Virus record (IMG/VR): IMGVR_UViG_3300036406_001035
Span: 78,522 to 142,521 of that record
Direction: 5' to 3' (one strand)
Length of the DNA stretch: 64,000 bases
Origin: a virus
Shown: piece after piece, positions 6,915 to 24,867 of the stretch
Numbering within the stretch: position 1 is the stretch's first letter
Layout of the letters: every line of letters starts with the position of its first letter
Made by a program: the position numbers and the translations under genes
Notes under the pieces: generated by a model
Databases searched by the model: none
Seen by the model: the letters and a program-made list of their open reading frames with translations, nothing else
What the model was told of the DNA's origin: nothing

Positions 6915-7140
6915 AGTCAGGTGGCAGAACTGGTAATGCCTATAGCTGAGTATTGGAATAAACAAGTAGACCCCTAATTAAAAGCCTAACGGATTTCACC
7001 ACCAAGAACCAAAGTTCTGGAATAATAAAAATCCTCAGATGTGGTTTAGGGACTTATCAAACTCTCCGAAATCAGAGTAGGAGCTGTTAATAACCAAGAT
7101 GGTAAGTGTTTATTTACAGGTTCGAATCCTGTCCTGACTA
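6915..7140 (+). tRNA. tRNA-like element 1 with 175-nt insert
   Basis: Acceptor AGTCAGG 6915-6921 pairs with CCTGACT 7133-7139, a D-arm-like stretch ends near 6940, and the T stem ACAGG 7116-7120 pairs with CCTGT across TTCGAAT. Instead of a 17-nt anticodon arm there are about 175 nt, closed by AATAAAC 6957-6963 and GTTTATT 7108-7114 next to the T arm, with internal hairpins such as AGAAC/GTTCT. Ends are identical or nearly so to elements 2 and 3. No anticodon can be placed with confidence. No group I core words (P7 GACUA/UAGUC type) are visible. Confidence 0.65.
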
Positions 7141-7154
7141 CAAAAAATATTAAT

Positions 7155-7313
7155 ATGAGAAGTAAAACAGTTCAGAGAATGCTGGATAAGATGAAAAAAG
7201 ACCCTTGGTGGGTTAAGTTAAAAAGATGGTTAATAGTAGAATTTTACGTAATCAATTGTTTGGGTGTTGTTAAATACATAAAAAATAATATAGTCAGGTG
7301 GCGGAATTGGTAG
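7155..7313 (+). CDS. Basic 52-aa peptide between tRNA-like elements
   Basis: ATG 7155 opens a frame that ends at TAG 7311-7313, inside the 5' end of tRNA-like element 2. The peptide is basic and amphipathic, with an aromatic-rich segment (KKDPWWVKLKRWLIVEFYVI) that could sit on a membrane. The overlap with an RNA gene makes expression uncertain. Confidence 0.35.
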   Translation: MRSKTVQRMLDKMKKDPWWVKLKRWLIVEFYVINCLGVVKYIKNNIVRWRNW

Positions 7314-7463
7314 ACCGTCTCTTGGTTGAGAAGGCTTATAGTCCATGTTCGGGGATTAACTCTTTGGCATACCGACAACTACAGTGAAGTATGAATGTAC
7401 CTCTCCTGATGTAGCGACAGAGTTTTAACTATAAGTATACAGGTTCGAATCCTGTCCTGACTA
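7292..7463 (+). tRNA. tRNA-like element 2 with structured insert
   Basis: Acceptor AGTCAGG 7292-7298 pairs with CCTGACT 7456-7462. The D region GCGGAATTGGTAGAC is of class II (Leu-like) type, and the T arm 7439-7455 is identical to the other two elements. An insert is closed by CTTATAGT 7335-7342 and ACTATAAG 7428-7435, just before the T stem. Inside it AACTCT/AGAGTT and CATAC/GTATG can pair. A small hairpin (TCTC...GAGA) occupies the place of the anticodon arm but has no normal 7-nt loop. Confidence 0.65.
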
Positions 7464-7481
7464 CTAAAATATTACGTGATA

Positions 7482-7613
7482 ATGCTAACTTTAGAAGAAT
7501 TTAAAAATAAGTACTCTGTTGAATTAGATGGGTTATTGGATGATGATGTAAAATATTATTACCATATATATTTAGAAGATCCATTTCAGTTTCATTCAGA
7601 TATGATTGATTAA
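7482..7613 (+). CDS. Small 43-aa acidic protein
   Basis: The ATG lies 19 nt after tRNA-like element 2 and the TAA lies 4 nt before element 3. The product is acidic (ELDGLLDDDVKYYYHIYLED) and looks folded or helical. It sits between two RNA genes and may be a remnant or a true small protein. Confidence 0.45.
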   Translation: MLTLEEFKNKYSVELDGLLDDDVKYYYHIYLEDPFQFHSDMID

Positions 7614-7617
7614 TAAT

Positions 7618-7707
7618 AGTCAGGTAGCGGAATTGGTAGACGCAAAAATAGAATTAGTAAGGTCGTAACCCCTTTACAATTTACAGGTTCGAATCCTGTC
7701 CTGACTA
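7618..7707 (+). tRNA. tRNA-like element 3, compact, CCA follows
   Basis: Acceptor AGTCAGG 7618-7624 and CCTGACT 7700-7706 pair; discriminator A 7707 is followed by CCA 7708-7710. D arm GCG...CGC and T arm match elements 1 and 2. Between the D arm and T stem there is only one long interrupted stem (GAATT/AATTT plus GTAAGG/CCTTTAC) with loop TCGTAACC. A standard 5-bp stem with U33 and anticodon cannot be drawn. It resembles a class II tRNA without an anticodon arm. Confidence 0.6.
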
Positions 7708-7710
7708 CCA

Positions 7711-8086
7711 TTATGGCGGAAACCTAACAAGTTGTGGGGCTCCTGTGTCTCTTAAAGTCTATAAAATACTTTAAGTCCAATTAAAAAGACAAGGTAGTGC
7801 AGAGTATAAAATCAACCCTTTTATAAAATGAATACTTGATATGTATTCTGTGTTTTTAGGTTAAAAACTAGGATATCCATACAACCTTATTTGTATGTTC
7901 TTCTATGAGTTTAAGGTTCTCATATTGATATAAATTATATATATGAAGATATATTAAAAGTTATTATAATCATGATTATAACTTTTAGATTTATATCTGT
8001 TTGGCAAAAAGAGAAGAAGTATTAGGATGGTATAACTTACATCCGAGTGTCGTTTCATGAAACGATGCTACTCCTTATAAAAATTT
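7711..8086 (+). other. Non-coding RNA-rich interval
   Basis: No convincing reading frame is present. Short hairpins (ATACAA/TTGTAT near 7880-7897), a long inverted repeat at 7947-7998 and a palindromic stem TCGTTTCATGAAACGA (8050-8065) are visible. It sits between tRNA-like element 3 and a tRNA and could be part of one long RNA precursor. Confidence 0.5.
7947..7998 (+). repeat. Long inverted repeat (hairpin)
   Basis: AGATATA 7947-7953 pairs with TATATCT 7992-7998, AAAAGTTA 7956-7963 with TAACTTTT 7979-7986, and the centre 7966-7979 is the palindrome ATAATCATGATTAT. Together they make an almost continuous stem of over 20 bp. It may act as an RNA structure or as a DNA site; no protein site could be assigned. 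Confidence 0.55.
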
Positions 8087-8157
8087 TCGAGTATAGTATA
8101 ATGGTAGTACGCCTCATCCTGGAAGAGGTAGCATAGGTTCGAATCCTATTACTCGTA
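8087..8157 (+). tRNA. tRNA, anticodon uncertain
   Basis: Acceptor TCGAGTA with TACTCGT (first pair mismatched), a D arm GTAT...GTAC of Gly/Gln type, anticodon stem CCTC/GAGG and T arm ATAGG/CCTAT fit a 71-nt tRNA. The anticodon stem has an A-A mismatch at its top, so the loop is 7 (TCCTGGA, anticodon CTG, Gln) or 9 nt (ATCCTGGAA, CCT possible). A 4-nt variable loop and C at position 33 are unusual. Confidence 0.7.
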
Positions 8158-8180
8158 CTAATTAAAAAAATTAAACAACA

Positions 8181-24760: not shown

Positions 24761-24828
24761 GGTTATATAGTATAATTGGTATTATGATTATTAATAATCG
24801 GATGTAGGTTCGAATCCTATTATAACCC
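24761..24828 (+). tRNA. Short tRNA, anticodon uncertain
   Basis: Acceptor GGTTATA with TATAACC, TA at 8-9, a GTATAATTGG D loop as in the tRNA at 8087, and T arm GTAGG/CCTAT are clear. The middle is only 34 nt, too short for standard arms; GATT/AATC form a stem round ATTAAT, which would place ATT (Asn) near the anticodon. It may be a minimal or decayed tRNA. Confidence 0.6.
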
Positions 24829-24867
24829 CTTTTTAAAAACAAACATTAAATAAAAACCTTAAAAATT

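Follow-up and report, generated by a model that had tools for sequence, protein, structure and literature searches.

The window, as we call the whole 64,000-nucleotide stretch of viral DNA that was analyzed, contains within 0.8 kb three elements with the ends of a tRNA and unrelated sequences between the D arm and the T arm. The question raised by this locus is whether these are interrupted or decayed tRNA genes or RNAs of another kind. The window corresponds to G000:C1:78522-142521 of a 142.5-kb virus record. The record carries genes for a DNA polymerase, a ribonucleotide reductase, NAMPT, a UvsX-like recombinase, and a primase/helicase, and because of this gene content the virus was judged most likely to be a tailed dsDNA phage. 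No match to PF01743 (CCA enzyme) or RtcB was found in the phage record; a search for RNA ligases was uninformative, its control having matched nowhere.

All three elements lie on the plus strand. Their common 5′ end is AGTCAGG and their common 3′ end CCTGACT-A-C, and the T arm is ACAGGTTCGAATCCTGT in each. The discriminator is A73 followed by C, and the D arm is of the tRNA-Leu type. An earlier note on this DNA had described a common acceptor stem and an identical T arm, and direct reading bore this out. The nearly identical D region that it also described was found in elements 2 and 3 and not in element 1, which is more diverged (TGGCAGAACTGGTAATGC). Element 1 (6915..7140; direct reading and shell scan) has a spacing of 176 nt between the D arm and the T arm (6940-7115), element 2 (7292..7463) one of 120 nt (7319-7438), and element 3 (7618..7707, acceptor to position 73) one of 39 nt (7644-7682), in agreement with the earlier estimates of about 175, 120, and 40 nt. 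The shortest insert is a single hairpin with the core GGTCGTAACCCC. Element 2 is located at the 3′ end of a 52-aa ORF. A small ORF on the plus strand between elements 1 and 2 (7155..7313, starting MRSKTVQRMLDKMKKDPWWVK...), the MRSK gene, has relatives in other phages that are flanked by shells, as we call the tRNA-like parts, with other inserts. At up to one mismatch, GGTTCGAATCC occurs six times in the window compared with 0.11 occurrences expected, and the shells of the window are thus far beyond chance.

The anticodon arm is missing. None of the three elements shows the expected 5-bp stem and 7-nt loop past the D arm, in line with the earlier claim. ARAGORN called none of them, and the Rfam tRNA model RF00005 reported element 3 only (42.6 bits), with the anticodon part left unaligned. 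In three other tRNA-fold genes of the same phage (window positions 24761-24829 and 8087-8158, and G000:C1:77483-77557) the anticodon loop measures about 6, 9, and 5 nt, respectively, and these genes may for this reason be unable to decode too.

A stem closing beside the T arm had been proposed for each element. Such stems exist: GAATAAACA/TGTTTATTT in element 1 (5′ strand GAATAAACA at 6956..6964, 3′ strand at 7107-7115 immediately 5′ of the T arm), GCTTATAGT/ACTATAAGT in element 2 (7334-7342 and 7428-7436, ending 2 nt short of the T arm), and GAATT/AATTT in element 3. Tested singly against dinucleotide shuffles of the respective insert, however, they gave P values of 0.035, 0.021, and 0.51. 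The MFE z-scores of the inserts were not low either (0.21, 0.81, and -1.04). Each of the three stems by itself is weak evidence and not decisive, and the structural claim is strong only for the class as a whole. No relatives were found for the inserts of elements 1 and 2. Part of the element 1 insert (window 6985-7047) has GCCTAACG ... hairpin ... AGATGTGG in common with positions 1428-1474 of L378, which look RNA-like and closely precede the tRNA at G000:77483; a search for relatives of this motif returned only a near-copy of another locus of the same phage.

Viral contigs were scanned with an exact 25-nt pattern covering T arm and acceptor, which yielded at least 120 stretches, and with two D-arm patterns, which likewise give lower bounds. 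At least 342 distinct shells were taken from the pattern loci. Among the matches listed, the T loop has TTC in 342/342 shells, the D loop has GG in 339, C74 is encoded in 335, and A73 is present in 306. The inserts of these 342 shells fell into 243 sequence-unrelated groups by blastn, 183 of them singletons. The sampled shells hold at most this many cargo types, because related inserts can be split apart: element 3 and the group L021/L053/L060/L062 share the hairpin core GGTCGTAA-CCC, yet were separated by blastn. The twelve records counted held between 1 and 11 shells each, mostly clustered in islands, and in 20/20 loci with at least three shells all were co-oriented.

Because the shells were sampled by their own patterns, part of the acceptor constancy follows from the method. 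In two scans with inserts only, which are free of this bias, AGTCAGG was again found in most shells. The clear exceptions among them were compensated. Acceptors that replace AGTCAGG/CCTGACT with pairing kept are ACGGGGG/CCCTCGT (L363), AGTGGTA/TGCCGCT (L327), and AGTCCTG/CAGGACT (L384). The shells are nearly absent from cellular genomes. A survey of 84,980 species of bacteria and archaea with the exact T-arm pattern gave only 4 matches, each of them in a MAG contig and two in Chitinophagaceae; a host tRNA as the source of the acceptor was rejected on these grounds. Among the isolated phages of INPHARED no shell was detected, and two Tenacibaculum matches cover the T arm only. The promoter-like sequence TATATTTG stands directly 5′ of shells, and the viruses that carry them probably infect Bacteroidota.

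Of the 204 insert families, 78 contain a helix, termed S2, that reaches the score threshold and has its 3′ strand ending 0-3 nt short of the T arm; shuffled inserts gave 24 (maximum 31). The enrichment was specific for this position, with counts close to background elsewhere. Among these 78 families, 48 have a gap of 2 nt to the T arm, and the 5′ strand begins a median of 17.5 nt past the D arm. A hairpin crossing S2, termed S1, was also in excess (mean score 11.1 versus 9.9, sd 0.22, prefix shuffles), which gives the layout of an H-type pseudoknot. Covariation was tested in two families only; most insert families are singletons. In the family 0 alignment (23 sequences) 99.3% of the cells are paired and 10 pairs show changes on both sides, a result matched by 0/500 shuffles; structures slid along the alignment fell to 27-45% paired. 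In family 7 (9 distinct sequences) 100% of the cells are paired, and two S2 pairs appear as GC/UA/AU and AU/UA/CG. The S1 stems are almost invariant in both families, and the covariation therefore supports S2 and the shell, not S1. Judged from these alignments, S2 and the hairpin following the D arm together form an H-type pseudoknot in the two families tested. A pseudoknot in elements 1 and 2 may be assumed by analogy only. In the loci scanned, which were not all loci, the inserts had no match to non-tRNA Rfam families. Rfam scans of part of the loci revealed no insert resembling a known effector or antitoxin RNA, including the ToxI, TenpI, and CptI repeats, the toxin partners of which would be located in the hosts.

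The inserts are exchanged at fixed places. One locus was found in 18 contigs; it belongs to a cluster of structural genes and has a terminase-like gene upstream at a distance of a few kb, as seen in L078. Its 200-nt flanks are 85-94% identical upstream and mostly 77-96% identical downstream, with a different downstream flank in four contigs, and a Bacteroidota-type promoter sequence (TATATTTG) stops a few bases 5′ of the shell. At least six unrelated inserts occupy this one place (L041/L300; L055/L061/L088; L078/L105; L298 and kin; L364; L176). The MRSK gene is 72-89% identical in the kin of the window, and shells flank most of its copies in L131-L135, with inserts that all differ. The insert of element 3 recurs with 39/39 identical nucleotides in L382 and L383, and the surroundings in L382 are unrelated. 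A near-identical copy is present in L384 inside the shell with the compensated acceptor AGTCCTG/CAGGACT. Different cargo at the same place together with the same cargo at different places indicates exchangeable alleles under selection.

As a class, the shells are well supported as selected, exchangeable, structured RNAs and not decayed or intron-bearing tRNAs; their function is inferred. The earlier note had read the elements as a tRNA scaffold with RNA cargo. This reading gained support from the covariation of S2 and shell in two insert families, from the swapping of cargo at fixed loci, and from the element 3 cargo kept in unrelated surroundings. The covariation analysis of relatives that the note had suggested showed pairing conserved while the sequence changes. 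A fold of each element into a standard tRNA with an intron, or relatives with inserts that vary without keeping a stem, would have refuted the reading; neither was encountered, and inserts with relatives retain their stems.

On balance, and without great assurance, we take the elements to be small non-coding RNA genes in which a tRNA-Leu-type scaffold has its anticodon domain replaced by a folded cargo directed at a host target, likely one in defense. The observations beneath this interpretation are the shell, the missing anticodon arm, a structured and covarying cargo, its exchange at fixed loci, and the near-absence from cellular genomes. The scaffold would consist of acceptor stem, D arm, T arm, elbow, and A73-C74, with the cargo folding independently in place of the anticodon domain. 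Given the intact elbow and ends, we infer that the tRNA machinery of the host (RNase P, 3′ end processing, CCA addition) would mature the tRNA body into a stable, abundant RNA displaying the cargo, with specificity supplied by the cargo. The cargo might then bind its host target, which would most likely belong to the anti-phage defense machinery. Recombination within the conserved halves of the shell would let phages exchange cargoes, in our proposal because defenses differ between hosts. In the absence of transcript data, transcription, processing, charging, and the defense target are all inferred.

A defense target is favored because the diversity and local exchange of the cargo resemble genes under host-specific selection, and this choice has no other basis than hypervariability and cargo exchange. 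Pseudo-ToxI is an earlier example of a phage RNA that mimics a defense RNA (PMC3475682). A bolder version, which we offer only tentatively and which may well prove wrong, is that Bacteroidota phages share hundreds of pseudoknotted RNA effectors, passed horizontally between them and displayed on one tRNA-Leu-like body without an anticodon arm, with alleles at fixed loci that each act against a different host defense factor. If true, this would be an RNA counterpart of the anti-defense protein islands. The cargo exchange at one locus suggests host-driven selection, and matching cargoes with hosts could thus reveal defense systems or other host targets. No earlier description of such an RNA class was found in the open-license literature, and a prior report cannot be excluded. 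A large viral RNA class seems to have been overlooked, because tRNA finders miss the genes or force odd tRNA calls.

The constancy of the acceptor exceeds the needs of a mere scaffold and hints at a specific partner (synthetase, EF-Tu, or nuclease). This is the starting point for the alternative that survives best, a charged or uncharged tRNA-Leu decoy. Here, the conserved shell would be the active part and would titrate or poison LeuRS, EF-Tu, RNase P, or a tRNA-cutting defense nuclease, and the insert would only block decoding or evade cleavage. The acceptor AGTCAGG, A73, and the tRNA-Leu-type D arm are conserved far above all else, which is the best argument for a shell-bound factor. Leucyl-tRNA synthetase is classically independent of the anticodon, and A73 and the D arm are compatible with leucylation, although charging is undemonstrated. 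The abnormal anticodon loops of several other tRNA-fold genes of the phage would also suit a decoy. However, the inserts are covarying structures and are conserved individually, as is that of element 3 in other phages, and are not filler. Neither 243 insert groups nor the exchange of inserts at one locus would be needed for copies of one decoy, and the same inserts are carried by three different acceptor stems. We therefore consider a decoy unlikely, if still a serious contender.

We give little credence to a tmRNA-like RNA or mimic of the ribosomal A site, in which EF-Tu would deliver the charged shell and the pseudoknot would fill the decoding site. An elbow with a pseudoknot replacing the anticodon arm is the general tmRNA layout, and the encoded C74 of the CCA end fits as well. 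Yet ARAGORN reported a tmRNA in 0/342 elements among the matches listed, the distance of the S2 5′ strand from the D arm is unlike the adjacent P2 of tmRNA, no conserved tag reading frame was seen by eye in the aligned families, and size and cargo diversity fit poorly.

The first alternatives named in the question above, tRNA-Leu genes with introns or decayed tRNAs, were also considered in the earlier note and are now disfavored to a similar degree. Elongator-tRNA features (acceptor, D and T arms, conserved elbow bases) are otherwise present, and the shells stand in tandem in tRNA islands. ARAGORN called 75 of the 342 shells among the matches listed tRNAs, with scattered or impossible anticodons, Leu being the commonest (18/75). 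A few shells have real-looking anticodon arms, of tRNA-Lys (L031) and tRNA-Ile-like (L055, L132) type, from which it follows that the shell body can also bear true anticodon arms. Class-wide, however, a 5-bp stem with a 7-nt loop directly after the D arm was present in 6/204 insert families compared with 6.06 in shuffled inserts, and canonical anticodon arms are thus at chance level. No anticodon arm is left outside the insert, inspection revealed no half arms at the insert borders, and no intron family appeared in any Rfam scan. Decay is excluded for the tested families by covariation and conserved cargo. Least plausible of all are DNA-level recombination or integration sites (integron attC-like cassettes) with an incidental tRNA fold, for which conserved ends, a middle exchanged at one locus, and the uniform orientation within islands could be cited, but the compensatory changes and retained G-U pairs, the promoter-like sequence, and a probable adjoining ribozyme indicate RNA.

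The shells were compared with known systems. With tRNA-Leu (class II tRNA, RF00005) they share the acceptor stem, D arm GGTGGCGGAATTGGTAGACGC, elbow, T arm, and A73; they differ in having no anticodon arm or standard variable arm, a structured and unrelated insert of 40-180 nt, and a distribution nearly confined to viruses. The engineered tRNA scaffold for recombinant RNA also carries its cargo at the site of the anticodon arm and uses tRNA ends for processing and stability, whereas the shells are natural and phage-encoded, with hundreds of cargoes swapped between phages (PMC3753655). If our preferred reading of a scaffold with cargo holds, this would be a natural use of the engineers' scaffold, with a ready library of folded cargoes. 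Like tmRNA and the tRNA-like structures of plant viruses, the shells combine mimicry of elbow or acceptor with pseudoknots; unlike these, they are short free-standing genes in DNA phages, with no tag frame, another pseudoknot position, a true D arm, and a highly variable insert. Phage pseudo-ToxI, which counters type III toxin-antitoxin systems, is likewise a phage non-coding RNA varying by expansion and recombination, and ToxI antitoxins are pseudoknots. It is a repeat array without a tRNA shell, has one known toxin target, and shows no sequence match to the inserts (PMC3475682).

Element 3 is probably followed by a Hatchet self-cleaving ribozyme (RF02678) at 7707..7817 on the plus strand, which begins exactly at the 3′ end of the element. 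The match scored 43.4 bits, below the gathering cut-off of 51 (E=4.6e-7), with the core UGUGGGGC ... GUGCAGA ... UAAAAUCA present, and it was the sole match in the 142.5-kb record (E=1.1e-8). No ribozyme was seen downstream of elements 1 and 2. The putative ribozyme might help to set the 3′ end of element 3, as has been proposed for theta ribozymes beside gut-phage tRNAs (PMC10879173). In both cases a self-cleaving ribozyme abuts the 3′ end of a tRNA-fold gene, mainly in Bacteroidota phages; in element 3, however, it is a probable Hatchet and not an HDV-like ribozyme, and its neighbor is a tRNA-like RNA without an anticodon arm.

GOLLD was found near shells in L135 (1517-1916, 100 bits, below cut-off) and L234 (3644-4051, 299 bits). 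The islands also hold a type-P3 twister ribozyme and a freshwater-1-like RNA just below cut-off (L311 2924-2993; L015 4124-4186; L279 8501-8562). Because of these co-occurrences, the shells are taken to be part of a wider set of phage RNA islands. GOLLD and ROOL resemble the shells in being elaborate phage RNAs that occur in tRNA islands and have no known function, but are much larger, have one conserved fold, and lack tRNA ends (PMC12286853). A hairpin of the form UGACR-5 bp-GAAAGA-5 bp-AACAU stands directly 5′ of shells and tRNAs (L023:1922 (+), L065, L009, L045, L103, and others). It was found in 41 distinct cases compared with 1-7 for control tetramers, 26 of the 41 preceding a shell, and its stem varies while pairing is kept. 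The hairpin had no Rfam match at permissive thresholds in the loci scanned and is possibly a 5′ processing element or a new ribozyme. Just 3′ of some shells (L009, L028, L117) there is a conserved stretch, CCTAGCCTTTGTTTGGGGCAAGCGCTCG..., which may be another structured RNA or ribozyme. Finally, the Tenacibaculum phage pT24 has two genes annotated as 'tRNA-Undet' (L128 2790-2868 and 3157-3235) that seemingly lack a usable anticodon loop, and this isolated phage is a possible entry point for laboratory work.
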